Source of the DNA: a virus
DNA: 63,521 bases
Reading direction: 5' to 3' (one strand)
Virus record (IMG/VR): IMGVR_UViG_3300027867_000006
Coordinates: 1-63,521 of that record
Shown: one piece after another, positions 4,238 through 17,368 of the stretch
Layout of the letters: the number at the start of each line of letters is the position of its first letter
How positions within the stretch are numbered: position 1 is the first letter of the stretch
The notes under the pieces: model-generated
Database searches by the model: none
The model's input: only the letters and a program-made list of their open reading frames with translations
Told to the model about the DNA's origin: nothing
Translations under genes and position numbers: made by a program

Positions 4238-4693
4238 ATGGCGACAGCCCTGCCGGGTGTTACACCCCCACCCGTTTTCCCGAAGCGAACGATCGTCTGC
4301 CTCTGCGGCTCGACGAAATTCTACCAGGCTTTCGCTCAAGCGAACGCCGACGAGACCCTCGCCGGGAAGATCGTCTTGTCGGTAGGATTCTTCCTCCACT
4401 CGACGCATCACACTGGCATCGGTCCGAGGGTAATTTCCCCCCACGAGAAAGAAAACCTCGACAGTCTGCACATGTCGAAGATCGATCTTGCCGATGAGAT
4501 CCTCGTGCTGAATGTCGGGGACTACATCGGGATGTCCACCCGGCGTGAAACCTGGTACGCCTTCCACAAGGGCAAGAGCGTCCGGTTCCTCGAGAAGATC
4601 CACGGCGCACGGGAAATCAACTCGTGGTTCGCTAACTGGGGCGCCTGGTCCGTTGCCGCGTCTGCGGCGTCGATTCAGCCGAGCGGGTCATGA
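4238..4693 (+). CDS. Nucleoside 2-deoxyribosyltransferase-like protein
   Basis: A 151-residue protein of the nucleoside deoxyribosyltransferase-like fold. It begins with the typical VCLCGSTKFYQAF (residues 20-32) and continues with LDSLHMSKIDLADEILVLNVG and YIGMSTRRETWYA, motifs shared by phage and bacterial members annotated as deoxyribosyltransferase or DUF4406-like. It may move deoxyribose between bases or cleave a dNMP N-glycosidic bond. It heads the rightward block with AAGGAG before the ATG and overlaps thyX by four bases, so a part in nucleotide metabolism is likely. Substrate unknown. Confidence 0.75.
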   Translation: MATALPGVTPPPVFPKRTIVCLCGSTKFYQAFAQANADETLAGKIVLSVGFFLHSTHHTGIGPRVISPHEKENLDSLHMSKIDLADEILVLNVGDYIGMSTRRETWYAFHKGKSVRFLEKIHGAREINSWFANWGAWSVAASAASIQPSGS

Positions 4694-5445
4694 TCAATGT
4701 CCTCGATCACGGCTATGTGAAGTTCATCGAGTGCTGGGGCTCGGACGAGCGCGTCATCGAAGCCGCCCGCATGTCGACCGACAAGGGCTTCAACGGGTGG
4801 GGACCGATTCACGAGTCCAGCTGTCATTCGCTCCATGAGCCCACTTTCCCTTGTACCTGTACGCCGAAAGCAGGCGACGAGAAGCTCCTCGCGTTCCTGT
4901 ACAAGAACAAACACATGACGCCTTTCGAAATGGGGGGCATCGTCATCGAGGTGATGGCGCCGATCTTCGTCTTTCGCGAGTGGCACCGTCACCGCACGCA
5001 GTCATATAACGAGATGTCGGCGCGATACATCCCGCTGCCCAACGTGAACTACGTTCCATCGATCGATCGCATCCTCAACGGCATCGCCAGCGTCGGAACG
5101 AACAGACAGGCTGCTGCACTCAACGCGAAGGGAGACCCGATCGAGGAGCCCGACTTCGAGAACTGGTTAGGAGATTTGGAGTCGGCCTACAAGTATTCGC
5201 AAGTGGTGTACGAGCGGGGCCTGAAGCTTGGTGTTCCGAAGGAACTCGCACGTCTGCCCGTTCCTGTCGCTCGATACAGCCGCATGCGGGCCTCAGCGAA
5301 TCTGCGAAACTGGCTGCAATTCCTGACGCTGCGCCAAGCGCCGAACGCGCAGTGGGAAATTCGGCAATATGCTGAAGCCGTTGGAATTCTAGTCAGCGAG
5401 TCCTTCCCGCGAACTTACGCACTATTCAAAGGAGAACCGAAATGA
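4690..5445 (+). CDS. thyX: Flavin-dependent thymidylate synthase ThyX
   Basis: A 251-residue ThyX. The family signature RHRxxSxNExSxR is present as RHRTQSYNEMSAR at residues 100-112. HMTPFEM (about 75-81) and the C-terminal NLRNWLQFLTLRQAPNAQWE (about 210-229) match the substrate and flavin regions. It converts dUMP to dTMP using methylene-tetrahydrofolate, NADPH and FAD. It is coupled by ATGA overlaps to its neighbours. With ThyX present, the separate ThyA-fold protein at 8759-9571 is free to do something else. Confidence 0.96.
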   Translation: MINVLDHGYVKFIECWGSDERVIEAARMSTDKGFNGWGPIHESSCHSLHEPTFPCTCTPKAGDEKLLAFLYKNKHMTPFEMGGIVIEVMAPIFVFREWHRHRTQSYNEMSARYIPLPNVNYVPSIDRILNGIASVGTNRQAAALNAKGDPIEEPDFENWLGDLESAYKYSQVVYERGLKLGVPKELARLPVPVARYSRMRASANLRNWLQFLTLRQAPNAQWEIRQYAEAVGILVSESFPRTYALFKGEPK

Positions 5446-6173
5446 TCGCATTCCACGGTGATAGCAACCTCAAGGCCCGCTACGTTGACCGCCTAAAGGC
5501 GCACGAAGTGGCCGACGAAATCATCCACGGCACCTATTGGGAGAACGGTAAGGGCTGCGCCGTGGGCTGCACGATCCACAGCAGCAATCATGGTGCCTAC
5601 GAAACGGAACTCGGCATTCCGATGATCCTGGCGCGACTGGAAGATCGCATCTTCGAAGGCATGAGCAACGGCAACTCGAAAGAGTTTCCCATGCGCTTCC
5701 TGAACGCGATTCCGGTCGGTGCTGACCTCTCCAGCGTCTGGTATCAATTCGCGCACTGGCTGCTGGTGGACGAAAAGGATGGTGTTCTGCGCTTCGCCAA
5801 GACTGACCGGACGAAGAAGGCCATTCAGGACGTAGCAGACCTCTATGCTCGCGCCGGGCGCGGCGAGAAGGTAGCAACGAAAGAATGGCAAAGCGCCCGG
5901 CAGTACGCCGCCGCCGCCACCGCCGCCGCCGCCGCCTACGCCGACGCCGCCGCCGCCTACGCCGCCGCCGCCGCCCCCGCCGTCGACGCCGCCGCCGCCT
6001 ACGCCGCCGCCGACGCCGCCGCCGCCGCCCCCGCCGTCGACGCCGCCGCCGCCGCCGCCGCCGCCGCCTACGCCGACGCCGCCGCCGCCGCACGGCGAAA
6101 AGCCTACAAGCGGCAGGCCGACAAACTGATCGAGCTGCTAATGGCAGCGCCTATTCCTGAGGGGGTCACATGA
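5442..6173 (+). CDS. Conserved phage protein with alanine-rich C-terminal tract
   Basis: 243 residues. The first 145 match a widespread but uncharacterised phage family (IAFHGDSNLKARYVDR, GKGCAVGCTIHS, YETELGIPMILARLEDRIFEG). Residues about 153-220 are nearly pure Ala broken by YADA, PAVDA and YAAAD units, encoded by GCC triplets; this should form a long helix. A basic end follows (RRKAYKRQADKLIELL). ATGA overlaps join it to thyX and the kinase. Function unknown; the alanine tract looks like triplet-repeat expansion. Confidence 0.8.
   Translation: MIAFHGDSNLKARYVDRLKAHEVADEIIHGTYWENGKGCAVGCTIHSSNHGAYETELGIPMILARLEDRIFEGMSNGNSKEFPMRFLNAIPVGADLSSVWYQFAHWLLVDEKDGVLRFAKTDRTKKAIQDVADLYARAGRGEKVATKEWQSARQYAAAATAAAAAYADAAAAYAAAAAPAVDAAAAYAAADAAAAAPAVDAAAAAAAAAYADAAAAARRKAYKRQADKLIELLMAAPIPEGVT
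5907..6093 (+). repeat. GCC-triplet low-complexity tract
   Basis: About 187 bases of GCC repeats interrupted by TAC, GAC, ACC and GTC codons, including two near-identical units encoding APAVDAAAA. In frame it codes the alanine-rich segment of the gene at 5442-6173. The open frames of arginine or arginine-like repeats read from other phases here are artefacts. Confidence 0.9.
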
Positions 6174-6673
6174 TCATCGTCGTGGAAGGATGCGATAACG
6201 CCGGCAAGACCACCTTGGCTTTGGATCTTGCCAAGAGGCTTCGCGCCGTGTTCCTGAAGGTCGAGCGTCCTGCGAGGGGAGTCGACCTCATGGCGTTTGC
6301 CAATCTGCTCGAGGTGGCGAAGAGTTACTCAGGTATCGTCGTAACTGATCGTCACGTCGCTATCAGCGAGCCGATCTACGGCAATATCATTCGAGGTGGG
6401 CACTCACTCAAGACCGAAGACCTTGCGTTGGCTCGAGAACGAATCGACCTCGTGGTCTATTGCCGACCCCCTAACGCTCGGATCTTCTCGACTATGGCCG
6501 ATCGCGAGCAGATGGAAGGTGTCATCGAGCAAGGCGAATCGATTCTCTGCGCCTATGATGATCTGTTTTTCACACCCGGTCCTCGGCACACCCGGTACGA
6601 CTACACGACGATGACGGTGGACGATCTGCTTCAACGCATCGCTCCGCTATTCAATCCGGCCCAAAGGAGCTGA
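6170..6673 (+). CDS. Deoxynucleoside monophosphate kinase (thymidylate kinase-like)
   Basis: 167 residues with a P-loop EGCDNAGKTTLA (6-17), a DR motif VVTDRHVAISEPIYG (about 58-72) and VVYCRPP (about 94-100), as in thymidylate kinase-like proteins. It would phosphorylate dTMP or a related, possibly modified, dNMP. It follows ThyX and precedes a MazG-like protein, so it belongs to the phage nucleotide pathway. Exact substrate cannot be read from sequence. Confidence 0.85.
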   Translation: MIIVVEGCDNAGKTTLALDLAKRLRAVFLKVERPARGVDLMAFANLLEVAKSYSGIVVTDRHVAISEPIYGNIIRGGHSLKTEDLALARERIDLVVYCRPPNARIFSTMADREQMEGVIEQGESILCAYDDLFFTPGPRHTRYDYTTMTVDDLLQRIAPLFNPAQRS

Positions 6674-6674
6674 A

Positions 6675-7382
6675 ATGCACGAAAGAAACGACTTCCTCGA
6701 TGTGCGCGAGTTCCACGTCAAATTTGGCGTACCGATCGATCACCCGGGCGTGCCAGTCCACTGGATGGACGATTCGATGTTCAGGTTCCGGCAGAAATTT
6801 CTGACCGAGGAGCTCAGCGAGTACGCTGATGCAGTCAACCGCAGCGACCTCGTGAAGACCGTCGATTCTCTGATCGACTTTGTCTATGTCGCGATGGGAA
6901 CCGCGCTGTTCATGGGTGCGGGGGAAGTCTACGTCGAGTGGCCAAAGTTCGCTCCAGTACGCCAGCGCGTCTTGCGCAACCGCTGGAACATGCCCCACAC
7001 ATCGGCCCCGATTTTTCTGACGGGTCAACTGAACCTCGAGATGCACGACCGCATGGCTCGGTTGATCGGTCAGTTCTGTCTTAATCACGTGTCGAAGAGC
7101 AAAGGTGAATGGGCGCATGACGTCACCGTGGGAATCCTGAAGATGGCCGTGCTCGAGGCGTATTTGACCGCCGCGATGATGAACGTCCCGTGGGTCGAAT
7201 GCTGGCAGCACGTTCACGACGCGAACATGAAGAAGATTCGAGCTGCATCAGATGGATCGGACTCCACGAGAAAGTCTCCCTGGGACGTGGTTAAGCCCGT
7301 TGGCTGGCTGCCCCCCGATCCTTCGATCCGACTCGAACTCGAGATGCGCGGCGCAATCATTCACACTCAGGGTGGAGTCTGA
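6675..7382 (+). CDS. MazG-like all-alpha NTP pyrophosphohydrolase
   Basis: 235 residues. FLTEELSEYADAV (about 43-55) followed by DLVKTVDSLIDFVYVAMG (about 58-75) gives the ExxE...D acidic pattern of all-alpha NTP pyrophosphatases (MazG / phosphoribosyl-ATP pyrophosphohydrolase-like). A second Glu-containing helix and PWVECWQHVHDANMKKI follow. Such enzymes remove unwanted (d)NTPs, for example to bias pools toward a modified nucleotide. It sits between the dNMP kinase and an unknown protein, with TGATG coupling to the latter. Confidence 0.75.
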   Translation: MHERNDFLDVREFHVKFGVPIDHPGVPVHWMDDSMFRFRQKFLTEELSEYADAVNRSDLVKTVDSLIDFVYVAMGTALFMGAGEVYVEWPKFAPVRQRVLRNRWNMPHTSAPIFLTGQLNLEMHDRMARLIGQFCLNHVSKSKGEWAHDVTVGILKMAVLEAYLTAAMMNVPWVECWQHVHDANMKKIRAASDGSDSTRKSPWDVVKPVGWLPPDPSIRLELEMRGAIIHTQGGV

Positions 7383-8167
7383 TGCTCATAGGATTGATCA
7401 AGCACGCTGTTGCGCTGCCGACGTTCGTTCTGCACGGCGTGCGCAAGATCGTTCAGGGCGTGCGGTGGGACGAAAAAGAACTCCCGCCCGCGCTGGACAT
7501 CTTGCGCGATCTGGGCTATAAGCCCGTGAAAGTGACCAGGTTGCTGAATCTCTACTACAACAAGGAGGAGGTCGCTAAAGCCAAAGCGAAGCTGAAGCAG
7601 CGTGTCGGTGAAGAGCATTCCTCGGTGTCGATCCTGACGCGCAACATGGAGAAGACGCATCCCATCACGCAGGGCTGGTGCATCCAGAACGTGGTCATCT
7701 CGCAGCGCTGGCACCGAAAAGAGCTGACCACCACGGCAGACGTCTTCTACCGCAGCACGGAAGCGATTATGAAATTCGGGGCGGATATCACATTGCTCCA
7801 CAACATATTCGATGGTGTCGGGGTCAAGCCATCGGTCGTACGGTTCTACTTCGCCAACCTGTACGTTTCGGCCGTCTTCTTCCCGCTGCTGTTTCGACAC
7901 ACAGACGGAGTCGCCTTCTTTCAGCACATCCGCAAGCATGACCCAGCGTTCTGGTGGTTGGCGACGAAAGCTGTGAGCCGTTATCTCGATCCGGTGAATC
8001 GCTACACCTACCGCGCTCAGGTGAAGCAGCGAGAGCTGGCGCAAGGACTCGATCGAGTGCCACTCGATGAGTACTTCTTCAATCGCTGTGGGCCTGAGAT
8101 GGCCGAGTATCATCGAGCGCACGCACCCCGGAAATCTACCGTGAGGAAGAAACGTGCAGTCGAATAA
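7382..8167 (+). CDS. Unknown conserved-looking protein in nucleotide-metabolism cluster (261 aa)
   Basis: I do not recognise this family. After a hydrophobic start (MLIGLIKHAVALPTFVLHG) comes a Lys-rich helix (KAKAKLKQRVG), then aromatic-rich sequence: GWCIQNVVISQRWHRKEL, TLLHNIFDGVGVKPSVVRFYF and FWWLATKAVSRYLDP. Conserved-looking His, Trp and Arg residues hint at an enzyme. It is translationally coupled to the MazG-like gene and overlaps the methyltransferase gene by 14 bases, so it may belong to base synthesis or modification. That is inference from position. Confidence 0.75.
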   Translation: MLIGLIKHAVALPTFVLHGVRKIVQGVRWDEKELPPALDILRDLGYKPVKVTRLLNLYYNKEEVAKAKAKLKQRVGEEHSSVSILTRNMEKTHPITQGWCIQNVVISQRWHRKELTTTADVFYRSTEAIMKFGADITLLHNIFDGVGVKPSVVRFYFANLYVSAVFFPLLFRHTDGVAFFQHIRKHDPAFWWLATKAVSRYLDPVNRYTYRAQVKQRELAQGLDRVPLDEYFFNRCGPEMAEYHRAHAPRKSTVRKKRAVE

Positions 8168-8758: not shown

Positions 8759-9571
8759 ATGTCTACAGCTCATCCCTCATTCGACATTGCTATTTCGCGC
8801 ACGAGCGACGCGATGCGCGACTACTCTCGCGTGATCAAGACGGAGAAGTGGCAAGGCATCGACATCTCGAAACGTCCTGAGGCCGAGATGCGAGAGGTCA
8901 TCGGCTGGGACTTCCGCGTCCAAATGCCCAGCGAGGATCCGGCGTACTACGCCGAGCAGATCAAGCCGAATCTGCCGTGGGCCGACGATCACTTTGTCGA
9001 GCGCGTCTGCGGATATCCGATGAACCCTGGCGAGACGTGGAAGGACTGGCCGTTCGCGCACTCAGCCAAGGGGTTCCTCGACGCCAAGGGGAGGTTCGAG
9101 GTCAACTACATGGAGCGTTTCTGGGGCGGAGCGGACAAAGGATTCCAAGATACCCCCGATACGGGTGTGACGTCTGGGTTATTCGGCATCCGCGGGCGCC
9201 CGTACGGCGACCTCGACAGCATCATCAGACTTCTAACCGAGCAGCCGCTGACGCGGCAAGCCTACTTGCCGATCTACTGGCCGGAAGATACAGGTGCAGG
9301 GGGTCGCGTTCCATGCAGTCTCGGCTATCACTGGATCATGCGAAACGGGCACTTGCATGTGCACTACCCGATCAGGTCGTGCGACTTCTACCGGCACTTC
9401 CGCGACGACATGTACCTGTGCATCCGACTGACGCTGTGGCTTCTCGAGCGCCTGCGCGTTGCTAATTTCCGAGTATGGAGGCAGGTCAAGCCCGGGTTCT
9501 TCTCGATGTGGATCGGCAGCTTGCACTTGTTCGTCAACGACTATCGTCTGCTCTTCGGAGATCGGCCATGA
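8759..9571 (+). CDS. Thymidylate synthase-fold protein, candidate dCMP hydroxymethylase
   Basis: 270 residues starting MSTAHPSFDI. The ThyA fold is recognisable from a catalytic-Cys motif RVPCSLGY (C186), the phosphate motif RSCD (206-209) and GSLHLFVND (253-261), which parallels the ThyA motif GDTHLYSNH. The residue eight after RSCD, Asn177 in E. coli ThyA, is Asp217 here. T4 dCMP hydroxymethylase makes the same change to read cytosine. The GLPFN segment is replaced by HFRDD. Since thymidylate supply is covered by ThyX, hydroxymethylation of dCMP (or dUMP) is my preferred role; this is inference. Confidence 0.78.
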   Translation: MSTAHPSFDIAISRTSDAMRDYSRVIKTEKWQGIDISKRPEAEMREVIGWDFRVQMPSEDPAYYAEQIKPNLPWADDHFVERVCGYPMNPGETWKDWPFAHSAKGFLDAKGRFEVNYMERFWGGADKGFQDTPDTGVTSGLFGIRGRPYGDLDSIIRLLTEQPLTRQAYLPIYWPEDTGAGGRVPCSLGYHWIMRNGHLHVHYPIRSCDFYRHFRDDMYLCIRLTLWLLERLRVANFRVWRQVKPGFFSMWIGSLHLFVNDYRLLFGDRP

Positions 9572-11024: not shown

Positions 11025-11072
11025 ATGATACTTACACCAGAGCAGCGCAAGGACTTCGAGGCCAAGAGATGA
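11025..11072 (+). CDS. Mini-ORF (15 aa) coupled to the deaminase gene
   Basis: Reads MILTPEQRKDFEAKR with GAGAGG about seven bases upstream, and its stop overlaps the deaminase ATG (ATGA). A nine-codon ORF (10999-11028, MNNKREVSK) overlaps it in the same manner. Either these are true coupled leader peptides or they are remnants of a longer gene; the start resembles that of many small phage proteins. Support is only positional. Confidence 0.3.
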   Translation: MILTPEQRKDFEAKR

Positions 11073-11506
11073 TCGATCGAATCTCTCGCGAGCAGATGTT
11101 GCTGGAAATAGCCCATGCTGTGGCTCTTCGAGGAACCTGTCGAAGACTCTCAGTGGGTGCTGTGATCGCCCGAGAGTATCATCCATTGGAGTTCGGGTAC
11201 GTCGGTGCGCCCCCTGGAGAAGCTCATTGCGACGAGTTCAATTGTGACCTGACTCAACCCTGTACTCGAACTTGGCATGCTGAATTCAACGTCATTAGAC
11301 GATCCAAAGAGCGTTCAATCAATCTACTGGGGGCTTCGATGTTTTGCACCGATTCGCCATGCCTCCAGTGCGCCATGAACATTCGGGACTCGGGCATCAC
11401 ACGAGTTTATTACGATCGCCGGTATAGACGACCAGAAGGAATTTTATATTTGGAATCGAACAATGTGGTTGTTGTACAGCTGAAGCGTTATGTCACGCAA
11501 TCCTAA
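11069..11506 (+). CDS. Deoxycytidylate (dCMP) deaminase
   Basis: 145 residues of the zinc-dependent cytidine/dCMP deaminase family. The catalytic HAE is at 70-72 (TWHAEFN) and the zinc Cys pair at 98 and 101 (SPCLQC). Extra Cys residues (CDEFNCD, PCTR) may bind a second zinc, as in phage dCMP deaminases. It makes dUMP from dCMP, feeding ThyX, and would compete with any dCMP hydroxymethylase for the same pool. ATGA-coupled upstream; its end overlaps the polymerase start by 17 bases. Confidence 0.88.
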   Translation: MIDRISREQMLLEIAHAVALRGTCRRLSVGAVIAREYHPLEFGYVGAPPGEAHCDEFNCDLTQPCTRTWHAEFNVIRRSKERSINLLGASMFCTDSPCLQCAMNIRDSGITRVYYDRRYRRPEGILYLESNNVVVVQLKRYVTQS

Positions 11507-14030
11507 CTGCACCGACTGCATGTTGCACGAGTCGTCCAAGCACGTATGCATCTGGGGCACAGGCGACGGCCCGGGATTCCTCGTAGGTGAAGCGCCAGGC
11601 CGCGAAGAAGGGCGCACTGGCAAGCCGTTCATGGGACAAGCCGGGCAACTGATGCGCCCGATTCTCGAGGAACTTGGCATTCACGACCCGTATATCACCA
11701 ACGCGGCGAAGTGCCGCCCCCCATCAAATCGGAAACCCGAGCCGAGCGAAATTAAGATCTGCAAGAAGTATCTCCTCGAGGAAATTCAAGACCGAAAACC
11801 GAAAGCGATTCTGCTTCTCGGAGCGATCGCGATGCGGTCGATGCTGAATCGCACGGGCATCACCGAGATGAATGGGCAGGTAGTCGAAAGGGACGGCCAG
11901 CAGTATGTTTGCGCTTTTCACCCGGCATACGTTCTGCGCGATCCGTCTAAGGAGAGCGCCTTTCGCATGGCGGTCGCTCGGTACGCCTCGGTGTTGAATG
12001 GCAGCTTCTCGAACGAGATGCCAAAGTGGAGCCCGATCGATCACGAGCACTTTGATGAATTCATCAGCGATTGGATACTCGCTGACGCTATCTCCTTCGA
12101 CACCGAAGGCGCCGGCGAAGATGAAGGAGACGGTCTGAAGTGGTGGAAAGAAGGATATGAGGTGACATCCATCTCGTTCTCGCTTCGGATTTCATCGAAC
12201 AGTGACGAAATGGAAAAGAACTGGGCGCTTGCGATGCCCGGTCACGCGGGGGCGGTTCTGAACGAGGAGATGTGCAGACTCCTGCTTGAGGAACTGGTCA
12301 CTATGACCGCCGGGAAGCGCATGGTCGCGCACAATGGAAAATACGACAACCTCTGCCTGATGCGCCGGTTTGGTGTTCGATTCCCACTGGCGTCAGACAC
12401 CATGCTGGCCAGTCACCTGACAGATGAGAACTCCAGTCACGGTTTGAAGATCCTCGCTCGTCAACATTGCGGGGCTCCAGATTATGATCTTTCGATGAGA
12501 GAGAAAAAAAATACGCGAAATGTGCCGATCCACAAGTTATTAGGCTATAACGCCGGTGACTCGGCTTGGACGCGACGCCTCGATCCGATCTTCCGCAAGA
12601 AGATGGACGATCAAGAGCGGTGGCTGTACGAGAAAGTGATCATGCCCGCAGCTCGAGCGTTCGAGCAGATCGAAGAGAACGGCCTGTATGTTGACCTCGA
12701 CTACCTCGCGCAATCGGAAGTCGATGAGAAGCGCAAGATGGTCGACACCATCAAGAAGCTGAATCGCATCGCGAAGCGCGAGGTCAACTGGAACGCGCCC
12801 GCTCAGGTCGCCGAGGTGCTGTACAAAGACCTCGGTCTCGAGCCGACGATCTTCACGGACAAAGTCAACCCCGACACCGGCGAACGCGACACACCTTCAA
12901 CCGGCGAGGAAGCGCTAGTCGACATCAAGCACCCGATCGGCAAGCTGCTCGAGGCGTACCGCGGGCACAAGAAGTTCCTCTCGACGTACACGGGCGAGCG
13001 TCAGGAAGACGGAACCTACGCCGGCGGGTGGCGCGACTACATGGACGGCCCGCGACTGTACCTCAGCACGAAGCTGCACGGCACCGTGACGGGCCGATAC
13101 TCGAGCCGCCTGCACCAGACGCCACGCGATGGGACGATCCGCAATGCGATCATCGCCCCGCCTGGGTGGAAGTTCGGCCAGCTCGACCTGTCGCAAGCCG
13201 AGTTGAAGACGATCGCCGTGGTCTCACGCGACCCGGAACTGCTGTCGTGCTTTAAGAAGGGCGAGGACGTTCACTGGCGCACGCTGATGGAGGCCGTGCG
13301 TGCAGGTGGCGGCGAGTACATCGATCTGGTGATGAGCACAGCGAAGCAGATCACCAAGCGAAAGCTCGAGTTCCCTGATGCGATGGACCTCGTGCACGAC
13401 TACGGGCGGCTGGATCCTGATGTGGCGATCGCCCTCAACGGCGACTGGAAGGAAGCACGGAAGAAAGCCAAGGGCATCAACTTCGGATTCGCTTTCGGTC
13501 AGAGTGCGAACGGCTTCATCAACTACGCTAAGACCAAATACGGATTCGAACCGACGTTGCAGGAATCCACGACGTTCCGCGATGCGTACTTCAACCTGTA
13601 TCACGCGCTACCAGCCTGGCACGAGCGACAGATCAAGCTCGCCAAGGCGGACGGGTTCGTCCGAAACCTGTGCGGGCGCAAGCGTCGCCTGCCGGGGATC
13701 TGGTCGAGTGATCGATCGCTCGTCGCTGAATGCGAGCGGCAAGCGATCAACGCGCCAATCCAGGGATTCATAGGTGACTACAAGGCGATGATCCTCGCCG
13801 AGTTGATGGAGACGTTTCCGTGGGAACGCTTCCGCATCGTCGGTGAGGTACACGACTCGATTCTCTTCTGGTTCAAGGACGACTCGATTCTCGAGGAGAT
13901 CCGCCAGGTAGCAGATCACCCACGGCTCGCGAAAGAATGCGGGCTCAATTTTCCAATCAACTTCAACGTCGACATCGAAGTCGGCCGATGGGGCAAAGGA
14001 ACTAAAATCAAAAGGAAACAACATGTTTGA
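11490..14030 (+). CDS. Uracil-DNA glycosylase / family A DNA polymerase fusion
   Basis: 846 residues in two parts. Residues 1-170 are a family 4-type Fe-S uracil-DNA glycosylase: CTDC (7-10), motif A GEAPGREE (33-40), Fe-S Cys at 75 and 91 and the HPAYV motif (144-148). The rest is a family A DNA polymerase with 3'-5' exonuclease: FDTEG (203-207), AHNGKYDN (about 281-288) and YNAGDSAW for proofreading, then motif A LDLSQAE (about 566-572), motif B KGINFGFAFG (661-670, Phe where Pol I has Tyr766) and motif C GEVHDS (about 785-790). It should replicate phage DNA while excising uracil. The fusion is unusual. Confidence 0.93.
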   Translation: MSRNPNCTDCMLHESSKHVCIWGTGDGPGFLVGEAPGREEGRTGKPFMGQAGQLMRPILEELGIHDPYITNAAKCRPPSNRKPEPSEIKICKKYLLEEIQDRKPKAILLLGAIAMRSMLNRTGITEMNGQVVERDGQQYVCAFHPAYVLRDPSKESAFRMAVARYASVLNGSFSNEMPKWSPIDHEHFDEFISDWILADAISFDTEGAGEDEGDGLKWWKEGYEVTSISFSLRISSNSDEMEKNWALAMPGHAGAVLNEEMCRLLLEELVTMTAGKRMVAHNGKYDNLCLMRRFGVRFPLASDTMLASHLTDENSSHGLKILARQHCGAPDYDLSMREKKNTRNVPIHKLLGYNAGDSAWTRRLDPIFRKKMDDQERWLYEKVIMPAARAFEQIEENGLYVDLDYLAQSEVDEKRKMVDTIKKLNRIAKREVNWNAPAQVAEVLYKDLGLEPTIFTDKVNPDTGERDTPSTGEEALVDIKHPIGKLLEAYRGHKKFLSTYTGERQEDGTYAGGWRDYMDGPRLYLSTKLHGTVTGRYSSRLHQTPRDGTIRNAIIAPPGWKFGQLDLSQAELKTIAVVSRDPELLSCFKKGEDVHWRTLMEAVRAGGGEYIDLVMSTAKQITKRKLEFPDAMDLVHDYGRLDPDVAIALNGDWKEARKKAKGINFGFAFGQSANGFINYAKTKYGFEPTLQESTTFRDAYFNLYHALPAWHERQIKLAKADGFVRNLCGRKRRLPGIWSSDRSLVAECERQAINAPIQGFIGDYKAMILAELMETFPWERFRIVGEVHDSILFWFKDDSILEEIRQVADHPRLAKECGLNFPINFNVDIEVGRWGKGTKIKRKQHV

Positions 14031-14265
14031 GTCCTTCGCCAATGATGCTTATCATCGAGACAAGTGCCTGACGTGTAAACATTCTGCGGCCGATCCCGAC
14101 GGTGCATTCTGTGGCCACCCAAAGAGTTTCAAGATGACGATCTACGGCCAAGGGATCACCCTCGCTCGTTCAGTGTCAGGAGTATGTGGCCCGTCTGCCA
14201 AATTATTCGAGAAGTGTACCTGTCATGATCGATACTGTATGAGACACCAACGGAGACAAGCATGA
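14023..14265 (+). CDS. Cys-rich small protein, likely zinc binder (80 aa)
   Basis: Starts inside the polymerase stop region and ends in an ATGA overlap with the nuclease gene. It has nine Cys, with CLTCKH (15-20), FCGHP, VCGPS and CTCHDRYCMRH at the end, suggesting one or two metal sites. Position between polymerase and nuclease genes suggests a replication accessory. Family unknown. Confidence 0.65.
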   Translation: MFESFANDAYHRDKCLTCKHSAADPDGAFCGHPKSFKMTIYGQGITLARSVSGVCGPSAKLFEKCTCHDRYCMRHQRRQA

Positions 14266-15350
14266 GCGCACACTTGAAAGTTGTTCGTCCTCAAGGCGAA
14301 AAGTCGCAAGGACCATTCGAAGTCAGTCAGTCTACGATCAAGACGTGGCGCCGCTGCCATGCAATGTACGACTACCGGCACGTTCAGTTACTCGAGCGCA
14401 AGAAGCCTGTCATCCAGCTGATCCGGGGGACGATGATCGGCAAGTGCGCCGACGCGATGGCTCTGCGCCGCGTGAACCCGAAGGCGCCGAAGTGGGAGAC
14501 TGCTCTCACGCCATTCGAGAAGCAGTACGCCAAGATGTTCGCGGCCGAGCAGGAGTACTACGGCGATCCGATCACTGAGGTCAAGCGCATCATGGCGCGC
14601 TACGAGCAGATCTACGCTAAGGATGGTTTGACGTATTTGATTCCACCGCAGAAAGAAGGGGTGTTAAATTCGAACACCCCCTACGAGCTGCCAATCCGTG
14701 TCGACCTGGCGCCGGGCATCGTCTTCACTGGGCACATCGACAAGATGCCACGCGACAAGCAAGGGCGCGTCTGGGACATGGATCACAAGTCGCACAAGAA
14801 CATCCCCGATCACGAGGCGCGCTTCGGCGATTTGCAACAAACTTTTTATCAGTGGGCGATGCCGCTGTCCGGGTATCCGAAACCCGCAGGCGTCATCTGG
14901 GACTACATCCGGACGAAGCCACCAGCGATCCCCGAGACGTTGGTGAAGGGAGGTCTGTCTCAACGGCAGAACATCGACACCGACTACGACACCTACATGT
15001 CGGAGATTGTCCGCAACAAGCTGAACCCGAAGGACTACAAGAAGATCCTCGTGCCACTGAAGGAACGGGGGACGATGGACTTCTACCAGCGCGTGCAGCT
15101 GCCGACGCCGAACAAGGCGATGATCGAGACGATCGTGGCCGACGCGAAAGCGTCCGCCCTCGAGATGCAAAAGCTCGGCGGCGTGGATAAGACGCGGAAT
15201 ATGACTCGCGACTGCAAGGGCTGCGAGTACTATAATTTGTGTCAAGCCGAGCTGCGAGGACTCGACGCAAGTTTCATCCGCAAGAGCGACTACCAGATCA
15301 ATCAGGACCCCCGTCACGTTCACAGGAGCGATACCAATGCCAGCGATTAG
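14262..15350 (+). CDS. Cas4/RecB-like PD-(D/E)XK exonuclease with Fe-S cysteines
   Basis: 362 residues. The nuclease core is GHIDKM (157-162), then WDMDHKS (171-177, the DxK part), then a Q-motif LQQTFYQWAM (191-200). A Cys near the start (C32, WRRCH) and three near the end (DCKGCEYYNLC, about 317-327) are placed like the 4Fe-4S ligands of Cas4/AddB-type nucleases. It is likely a 5'-3' exonuclease making single-strand ends for the annealing/recombination proteins encoded next. It overlaps the Sak4-like gene by 14 bases. Confidence 0.85.
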   Translation: MSAHLKVVRPQGEKSQGPFEVSQSTIKTWRRCHAMYDYRHVQLLERKKPVIQLIRGTMIGKCADAMALRRVNPKAPKWETALTPFEKQYAKMFAAEQEYYGDPITEVKRIMARYEQIYAKDGLTYLIPPQKEGVLNSNTPYELPIRVDLAPGIVFTGHIDKMPRDKQGRVWDMDHKSHKNIPDHEARFGDLQQTFYQWAMPLSGYPKPAGVIWDYIRTKPPAIPETLVKGGLSQRQNIDTDYDTYMSEIVRNKLNPKDYKKILVPLKERGTMDFYQRVQLPTPNKAMIETIVADAKASALEMQKLGGVDKTRNMTRDCKGCEYYNLCQAELRGLDASFIRKSDYQINQDPRHVHRSDTNASD

Positions 15351-16152
15351 AAAGAAGGCCAGCAACAAGCCCCCGATCGAATTCACCGCAGTCGATCAGG
15401 TCCCGGAGGTCGTGGCCTGTCTGGCCTGGGGACGCTCGGGGACGGGGAAGACCACGTTCGCTTCGACGTTCCCGAAGCCGATGCTGTTTCTGGACGTGCG
15501 CGAGAAGGGTACCTCCTCTATCTCGAACGTCAAGGGCATCAAGGTCGGTCGAATCACGGAGTGGGACGAACTCGAACAGGTCTTCTGGTACCTGAAGAAG
15601 GGCGAGCACGAGTTCAAGACCGTGGTGATCGATCAGATCACGACGCTCCAGGATCTCGCGATGTCCAAAGCGAAGAAGGACGAAGGCAAGGAAGACAGCG
15701 ACGCTTCCTCGAAGCGGATCTTCGGTCTGACCGGCGGTCTGATGAAGACCTGGCTACTGAACTTCCGGGACCTGACCGAAGAAGGAATCCACGTCATCTT
15801 CATTGCGCATGATCGAACCACGCGCCCAGCGGATGACGCTAGCGGAGATGACCAGCTCGAGCCGGAAGTCGGGCCTCAGGTCATGCCGAGCGTCGCGTCG
15901 TTTCTCAACGGATGCGTCGGAATCATCGGCAACACGTTCATTCGAGAGAACTTCACAGTCGAGAACAAGCGCCGCGTGCGCCATGTCGAGTACGGCATGC
16001 GTCTCGGCCCGCACGCTTACTACACTACGAAGGTCCGGAGTCCGGTTGGAATAGCGGCCCCCGAATCGATCGTGGACCCCACATACGATAAGCTGGTGGC
16101 GATCGTCCGGGGGGACTATTCCGAAACCGCCACCGCCAAGAAGAGGAAATAG
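15337..16152 (+). CDS. Sak4-like RecA-fold ATPase (AAA_24), recombination
   Basis: 271 residues. Walker A GRSGTGKTT at 32-40, Walker B-like TVVIDQ at 95-100, and an IFIAHD segment typical of the AAA_24/Sak4 group. These phage ATPases assist single-strand annealing with a cognate SSB. The neighbours (nuclease upstream, DUF669/SSB-like protein downstream) complete a standard phage recombination set. Confidence 0.85.
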   Translation: MPAIRKKASNKPPIEFTAVDQVPEVVACLAWGRSGTGKTTFASTFPKPMLFLDVREKGTSSISNVKGIKVGRITEWDELEQVFWYLKKGEHEFKTVVIDQITTLQDLAMSKAKKDEGKEDSDASSKRIFGLTGGLMKTWLLNFRDLTEEGIHVIFIAHDRTTRPADDASGDDQLEPEVGPQVMPSVASFLNGCVGIIGNTFIRENFTVENKRRVRHVEYGMRLGPHAYYTTKVRSPVGIAAPESIVDPTYDKLVAIVRGDYSETATAKKRK

Positions 16153-16154
16153 CC

Positions 16155-16769
16155 ATGAAGAAGGGAAAGTCCGTGAAGGTTGACTTCACTGGCGTCGATG
16201 TCACCGGCGGCGGCAAGCTGCTGCCGGAGGGACCGATCCAGCTGGAGCTGAAGGAAATCGAAGAGAAAGAAGGCGAAGACAGCGGCAAGCCGTACCTGGA
16301 AGGCCGCTTCGAAGTCGCCGAGCCGGGCGAGAACGAAGGCGTCACGGTGTACGACAACTTCTCGCTGCAGCCGAAGGCGCTGTGGAAGCTGCGCTCGGTG
16401 ATGGAAGCCGGCGGCATCCAGACGGTGGACGGCCCGATGTCCATCGATCTGGACGAGCTCGTTGGAATCGTCGTGGTGGGAGACATCATCCACGAGGAAT
16501 ACAAGGGCAAGCAGAAGAACCGCGTCAACGGGTATTCGTCCGTGGACGGGGGCAGCACTGCGACTGAAGAATCGACGCCGGCGAAGCGCAAGCGCCCGGC
16601 GCGTGGTGGCGACGATGAGCCGACGTGGAAGCTGAAACAGGCGGTGACGTTCAAAGACGGCAAGAAAACCCTGTCGGGCGTCATCACCGAACTCAACGGC
16701 GAGAAGGTGACCGTCAAGGTAAACAAAGACGAGTATGAAATGGAGACCAGCGACCTGACGGCCGCCTGA
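16155..16769 (+). CDS. DUF669-like / SSB-like recombination partner
   Basis: 204 residues. The N-terminal 135 (LPEGPIQLELKEIEEKEG, SGKPYLEGRFEV, YDNFSLQPKALWKLRSVMEA) match phage DUF669-type proteins, which sit beside Sak4 ATPases and probably bind single-stranded DNA. A Lys/Arg linker (about 140-158) leads to a small C-terminal beta domain (WKLKQAVTFKDGKKTLSGVI) resembling a KOW/SH3 fold. It is the last gene before the terminator at 16793. Confidence 0.75.
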   Translation: MKKGKSVKVDFTGVDVTGGGKLLPEGPIQLELKEIEEKEGEDSGKPYLEGRFEVAEPGENEGVTVYDNFSLQPKALWKLRSVMEAGGIQTVDGPMSIDLDELVGIVVVGDIIHEEYKGKQKNRVNGYSSVDGGSTATEESTPAKRKRPARGGDDEPTWKLKQAVTFKDGKKTLSGVITELNGEKVTVKVNKDEYEMETSDLTAA

Positions 16770-16831: not shown

Positions 16832-17368
16832 GTGTCTAAGGTCAATTCCAACCGAGTTGGTACTCTCTACTCGATGATCTCACCGAGTGGAAAGACTTAC
16901 ATTGGGATCACGGTTCAAAGTCTTGCTCGTCGAATAAGTGGCCACCTCAGATGTGCCGTTCATCATTACAGTTCCAGACCACTTTCTAGAGCTATTCGAA
17001 AGTACGGCATCAAGAGCTTCGAGCTTAAAGCTCTAGCAATTGGTCAGTGGGACTATCTAGTTTTACTTGAGATCCGAGCCATCGATCGGTTTAACAGCCG
17101 AGCTCCGGAGGGCTATAACTCAACCGATGGAGGAGAAGGAATGTTGGGTTATAACCCCACAGCTGAAACTCGAGAGCGACTTTCCCGTTCAAATAGCGGA
17201 AAGACCCATTCGATTCGAACTCGTAAGAAAATCTCAATGGCGAATCGAGGGAGAACTCCCTCAATCGAGACGCGACAGCGACTATCAGTCGCTCACCAAG
17301 GACATCGACATTCGCTCGAGACACGTCGAAAGATCTCTATCTCAGCCAAAGCTCGATTCTCGGGGTAA
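16832..17368 (+). CDS. GIY-YIG homing endonuclease with NUMOD3 repeats
   Basis: 178 residues. The nuclease domain starts with TLYSMISPSGKTYIGIT (11-27), the GIY-YIG pattern. The C-terminal part carries three NUMOD3-type DNA-binding repeats (SGKTHSIRTRKKIS, RGRTPSIETRQRLS, GHRHSLETRRKIS). It has no ribosome site; GTG 16832 lies at the predicted transcript start. AT-richer than neighbours and flanked by its own promoter, it looks like a free-standing mobile gene that cuts a related phage lacking it. Confidence 0.88.
   Translation: MSKVNSNRVGTLYSMISPSGKTYIGITVQSLARRISGHLRCAVHHYSSRPLSRAIRKYGIKSFELKALAIGQWDYLVLLEIRAIDRFNSRAPEGYNSTDGGEGMLGYNPTAETRERLSRSNSGKTHSIRTRKKISMANRGRTPSIETRQRLSVAHQGHRHSLETRRKISISAKARFSG

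Follow-up and report, generated by a model that had tools for sequence, protein, structure and literature searches.

A uracil-DNA glycosylase domain at the N-terminus of a phage family A DNA polymerase, and signs in its relatives of repeated loss of chemistry under continued selection

The DNA analysed here is a stretch of 63,521 nucleotides (referred to as the window) from the IMG/VR record IMGVR_UViG_3300027867_000006. Genes for a tail sheath, a portal protein and a maturation protease identify the source contig as that of a tailed phage whose tail is contractile. On the forward strand, an open reading frame runs from an ATG at 11490 to a stop ending at 14030 and encodes 846 amino acids with 0 internal stops. 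The protein begins with a uracil-DNA glycosylase (UDG) domain of the Fe-S family 4, continues with a 3'-5' exonuclease and ends in a family A DNA polymerase. A sequence-only reading had described such a fusion, and this is borne out by the open frame, Pfam, NCBIfam, PHROGs (phrog_17), the solved UDG structure 1ui0 and an AlphaFold2 model of the whole chain with a mean pLDDT of 94.4. Applied to both halves of the protein, Pfam reports UDG at residues 30–157 (E 7e-28), DNA_pol_A_exo1 at residues 278–372 and DNA_pol_A with its best stretch at residues 654–833 (E 2e-50), each of them above its curated cut-off.

The exonuclease domain (PF01612) is encoded at 12075–12605 (+) and carries D204, E206, D286 and D357. 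It is followed by the polymerase domain (PF00476; 12606–14015, +), in which D566 belongs to motif A, K661 to motif B, and H788 and D789 to motif C. These residues, including the three polymerase motifs noted in the sequence-only reading, are invariant or nearly so among 139 relatives, and the protein thus has both domains and the catalytic residues of a proofreading family A DNA polymerase. In Foldseek searches with the whole-chain model, the best matches for the polymerase part are to the Klenow fragment of E. coli. Since structure searches with whole-chain models returned polymerases only, the UDG fold was judged by profile comparison instead. A 5'-nuclease domain is absent, and the UDG domain occupies the N-terminus, the place of the 5'-nuclease in cellular Pol I. 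The fusion is the replicative DNA polymerase of the phage, with a family-4 UDG domain at its N-terminus. DpoZ, the aminoadenine-incorporating polymerase, was considered as an alternative assignment and rejected, as the protein scores 53 against 500 bits with NF038380 and 17 against 350 bits with NF038381.

The UDG domain covers residues 1 to about 170 (11490–11999, +; PF03167). The N-terminus of the fusion reaches 132.4 bits with the NCBIfam model UDG_fam4 (TIGR00758; cut-off 125.3), and its best solved match is the UDG of Thermus thermophilus (1ui0, E 2e-35). In the alignment to 1ui0, all four Fe-S cysteines and the pocket residues E34, F47, N71 and H144 are paired with identical letters. C7 and C10 form a C-X2-C pair (11508–11519, +), and C75 and C91 a C-X15-C pair, which lies together with the uracil-binding N71 at 11700–11762 (+). 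The family-4 motif GE(A/G)PG is present with E34 in GEAPGREE (residues 33–40), and the stretch from this motif to the stacking F47 (residues 33–47) is encoded at 11586–11630 (+). The HP(A/S) motif corresponds to HPAYV (residues 144–148; 11919–11933, +), which contains the catalytic H144. The cysteines and both motifs had been pointed out previously, and none of the Fe-S or catalytic residues is lost in the protein. The assignment as UdgX, which binds uracil-DNA covalently, was rejected (TIGR03914, 94.8 against 189.95 bits). Because its pocket is intact, the domain probably acts as an active uracil remover on DNA handled by the polymerase.

The polymerase gene is part of a replication and nucleotide cassette, all genes of which lie on the forward strand. 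The dCMP deaminase gene (11069–11506; PF00383, phrog_174) overlaps the start of the polymerase by 17 bases and has the same position in relatives. Further upstream are a thymidylate-synthase-like (TS-like) gene of the conserved cassette (8759–9571; phrog_160 E 7e-25, PF00303 weak) and its conserved partner gene X (7382–8167; phrog_34294 group, E 3e-4), a homologue of which is found in the same place in relatives. Gene X has no Pfam match above chance; its stretch FYRSTEAIMKFGADITLLHNI resembles the active-site region of thymidylate synthase, and the gene may encode a second, very divergent TS-like enzyme. These are preceded by a MazG-like nucleotide pyrophosphohydrolase (6675–7382; phrog_671, PF01503), a thymidylate-kinase-like nucleotide kinase (6170–6673; phrog_761 E 2e-24) and the FAD-dependent thymidylate synthase ThyX (4690–5445; PF02511 and TIGR02170, over cut-off). 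Beside ThyX, a protein encoded at 5442–6173 has an alanine-rich low-complexity repeat as its C-terminal half. Downstream of the polymerase, the conserved genes are a PD-(D/E)XK (Cas4-like) exonuclease (14262–15350; PF12705, phrog_1218), a Sak4-like ATPase/annealing protein (15337–16152; PF13479, phrog_124) and a phrog_3724/DUF669-like protein that is possibly ssDNA-binding (16155–16769; phrog_3724 E 3e-19). Behind this cassette, 16832–17368 encodes a NUMOD3-bearing protein, probably a homing endonuclease of the GIY-YIG type. Across relatives, the recurring cassette consists of the kinase, MazG or dUTPase_2, gene X, the TS-like gene, dCMP deaminase and polymerase, followed by the PD-(D/E)XK nuclease, Sak4 and the phrog_3724-like protein. 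The window corresponds to this cassette with the addition of ThyX.

Relatives of the fusion were collected by scanning IMG/VR. An earlier scan of viral contigs with a single protein query gave 0 matches; alignment queries were then used, and two scans with these yielded 148 loci. Retrieval relied on exonuclease and polymerase motifs with ranking by likeness to the window, and the set is not a random sample. The resulting alignment contains 145 near full-length polymerases from IMG/VR loci and named phages, and the N-terminal domain could be judged in 139 of them. The closest relatives are 60% identical in the UDG part and 55–56% in the polymerase part, and the nearest named relatives are less than 40% identical. 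Among the 50,697 phage records of a separate collection, the UDG part finds a match in 72 and some stretch of the whole protein in 2026. The same domain order in one frame recurs in about 145 contigs and phages, named phages among them. For this reason, there is practically no chance that the fusion arose artificially, through an error of sequencing or assembly that merged separate genes. In L070, L148 and L016 of the collected set, the polymerase is split over two frames or genes. In L142 (1954–6099), an insert of 284 residues with intein-like ends interrupts the UDG domain immediately ahead of its third Fe-S cysteine. Inserts of 262–301 residues in the polymerase part, probably inteins, are found in L133 at motif B, and in L096 and L087 after the position of window residue 539.

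The pocket of the UDG domain varies greatly among these relatives. Of the 139 judgeable domains, 69 have the complete set of four pocket residues, one residue is lost in 13, and two or more are lost in 57, the last group being termed "lost" in the following. Individually, E34 is kept in 106 domains, H144 in 98, F47 in 84 and N71 in 83. A tree built from just the polymerase part (145 rows, 580 columns) requires about 20 changes of the "lost" label, 17 of which are forced by well-supported branches, compared with 44 for shuffled labels. Examples of losses inside intact clades are L019 (N71H, H144S), L108/L109 (N71Y, H144Q) and L114/L036/L051 (N71Q, H144D). The direction of these changes, which the change count alone cannot tell, is taken to be loss and not gain, since the pocket residues match those of cellular UDGs. 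No description of repeated pocket loss was found in searches of an open-access library.

The altered domains retain much of the remaining architecture. The Fe-S cysteines are each kept in 115–117 of the 139 domains (C7 in 116, C10 in 115, C75 and C91 in 117 each), which is oftener than F47, N71 or H144, and the full set of four survives in 40 of the 57 "lost" domains. Each of the 11 decayed groups matches a profile built from intact UDG domains only, with an hhalign E-value of 4e-14 or better, and an AlphaFold2 model of the decayed L076 has the same order of strands and helices as the intact domain. Close pairs give a median dN/dS of about 0.19 for "lost" domains with Fe-S cysteines and 0.18 for those that lack them, compared with 0.11 for intact UDG domains and 0.08–0.12 for the polymerase part; these pairs are few and non-independent, and some have a dS near saturation. 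Altered UDG domains thus evolve faster than intact ones and are still under purifying selection. The comparison of the 145 relatives suggests that the attached UDG domain has often lost its chemistry and yet stayed under selection. Even where the pocket is altered, Pfam still calls the domain UDG at E-values no worse than 1e-18, and such a match on a phage polymerase does not imply uracil repair. The protein of the window is itself unremarkable, a probably active representative of an architecture already known, and the interest lies in the pattern at the level of the family.

The sequence-only reading had connected the fusion with strong pressure on uracil in phage DNA. Here, a dUMP-rich pool generated by dCMP deaminase would lead to uracil in the DNA, which the fused UDG would clear at the fork. 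The intact pocket and Fe-S residues in the window and its nearest relatives speak for this reading, as does the strong selection on intact domains. In addition, the deaminase and thymidylate-synthase genes adjoin the polymerase, and neither the window nor 49 related records yielded a trimeric dUTPase (PF00692). Being absent throughout, the latter is uninformative about pocket state. The deaminase, however, lies directly upstream of the polymerase in 37 of 52 relatives with an intact pocket and in 51 of 55 with a lost one, and a subgroup near L111–L127 lacks the upstream deaminase and TS-like genes and has mostly intact pockets. Neither dCMP deaminase nor ThyX, the TS-like gene, the kinase, MazG or dUTPase_2 is significantly associated with pocket state on independent pairs, although informative pairs are few and weak effects could escape this test. 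As the deaminase is no less frequent beside lost domains than beside intact ones, it is no marker of pressure for uracil removal, and more plausibly supplies dUMP to the TS-like enzymes. The tree, with its roughly 20 changes of pocket state and the pocket lost on many branches where the domain was retained, likewise speaks against uracil clearance at the fork. As to the possible modified bases mentioned in the sequence-only reading, the TS-like gene, ThyX, the nucleotide kinase and the MazG-like gene do lie nearby, but the analysis gave no sign of a modified base. Thus, the domain assignment, the Fe-S cysteines and the motifs of the sequence-only reading stand, whereas strong pressure on uracil and its link to the deaminase are not supported, and uracil clearance as the main role of the domain is a doubtful, if still conceivable, explanation.

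Two further readings address the altered domains directly. The UDG domain could be a structural remnant in the place of the 5'-nuclease. Its role would then be limited to stabilising the fold or the exonuclease, with no contact to DNA. Decayed domains do keep their fold and often their Fe-S cysteines, and T5-like polymerases retain just part of the domain. A purely structural function is nevertheless unlikely in view of the intact pockets in about half of the family, the dN/dS of 0.11 measured there, and the polymerases that manage without the domain. Alternatively, the pocket changes could represent a new specificity, with the domain reading or excising another base in lineages with modified pyrimidines. 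The UDG-fold enzyme Brig1, which has other residues at the pocket places and excises glucosylated hydroxymethylcytosine (PMC11078745), lends some weight to this. In five relatives E34 and H144 are kept and F47 and N71 are changed, as might be expected of an altered specificity, and TS-like genes are common nearby. Most altered domains also lack E34 or H144, many lack three or four of the four residues, and pocket loss shows no association with the TS-like genes; a changed specificity is therefore quite unlikely as a general explanation.

The reading preferred here, with about an even chance of being correct, is that the UDG fold is retained chiefly because it gives the polymerase a covalently attached module that binds DNA, for processivity or template scanning, and that the window's copy probably also cuts uracil. 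The domain would add DNA binding to a polymerase without a 5'-nuclease domain, and glycosylase chemistry would be optional for this role. With its intact pocket, the window's copy would additionally remove uracil from DNA handled by the polymerase. DNA binding, processivity and the glycosylase activity of this copy are what we infer from sequence comparison. The pocket losses, the retention of the Fe-S cysteines and the continued selection on altered domains are in line with an attached DNA-binding module, as are the decayed domain of SPO1, the remnant in T5-like polymerases and, by analogy, the vaccinia virus protein D4, all discussed below. Two observations count against it. Selection is tighter on intact domains than on altered ones, and catalysis hence matters where it is kept. 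Moreover, the domain is dispensable to a family A phage polymerase, since some relatives lack it, such as the polymerase of Microbacterium phage Finny (621 aa), which begins at the exonuclease. Should the domain be a processivity module, this would explain why it outlives its chemistry.

The order of UDG, exonuclease and polymerase is already known, and the protein of the window joins this architecture. It has been described for gp31 of Bacillus phage SPO1 and for Bacillus phage Shbh1 (PMC5135824), and the same phage paper passes on the idea that the UDG domains of polymerases contribute to processivity. Like SPO1 gp31, the window's protein is a single chain with an N-terminal UDG fold, an exonuclease and a family A polymerase. 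SPO1 gp31 keeps the HP but lacks the Fe-S cysteines, reads QENPF in place of GEAPG, and has a serine within a YYTS stretch in place of N71, whereas the window's protein has the cysteines, GEAPG and N71. By its sequence, the UDG domain of SPO1 itself is decayed. The gp31 gene also contains an intron.

The same order is found in gp205 of Pseudomonas phage PaBG, a jumbo phage from a group different from that of the window's phage. The PaBG fusion was proposed to favour accurate replication, and its UDG part is reported to have no close sequence outside its group (PMC7412058). The polymerase of Thermus phage phiLo shares with that of the window the UDG-PolA fusion, the four cysteines and an intact pocket. 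It is larger (1176 aa), only about 22% identical overall, and has different gene neighbours; its sequence matches PDB 9qhs across the stretch compared. The closest named records are MW202455 (Caudoviricetes sp.), Serratia phage Serbin and Pseudomonas phage PMBT14, all of which have the cassette of TS-like gene, polymerase, PD-(D/E)XK nuclease and Sak4 as in the window. The pocket is kept in MW202455, whereas Serbin and PMBT14 lack E34, F47 and N71 and retain the cysteines.

The DNA polymerase of phage T5 is homologous to that of the window, and its first 130 residues are a recognisable remnant of the UDG domain. The cysteine cluster is absent, and just the C-terminal half of the UDG domain aligns. 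Pfam finds no UDG match in T5-like polymerases. In profile comparison, the T5 group (four members) matches the intact UDG profile with an E-value of 6e-9 and single members with about 2e-6 to 2e-7, compared with a lowest E-value of 0.011 among 200 unrelated frames. The aligned part sits just before the exonuclease, which is the expected place. A profile of the whole family also recognises the T5 remnant, and with this profile the signals of Pseudomonas phage UF_RH6 (E 4e-19) and Mycobacteroides phage 8UZL (E 1e-16) are stronger than that of T5. The polymerase of Vibrio phage vB_VhaS-a gives no UDG signal. A description of the T5 remnant was not found in searches of an open-access library. A bolder and more tentative proposal is that phage family A polymerases acquired a UDG domain which was converted, on many occasions, into a DNA clamp that has no catalytic activity and often still bears Fe-S. 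Classical polymerases such as that of T5 would then owe part of their intrinsic processivity to a decayed glycosylase that had gone unrecognised in them, and uracil excision in copies like that of the window would be a retained side activity. This is possible, though the odds are against it. A processivity module would offer a testable origin for part of the T5 polymerase.

The UDG of vaccinia virus, D4, belongs to another UDG family and works with a family B polymerase. It is a separate protein, unlike the covalently attached domain of the window. Two papers on D4 describe a role in processive replication that is independent of catalysis (PMC1936997, PMC3946371). The proposed module would resemble D4, by analogy only, as a UDG serving a viral polymerase independently of catalysis. 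If the attached domain does act in processivity, it would be a parallel to vaccinia D4 in viruses of bacteria.
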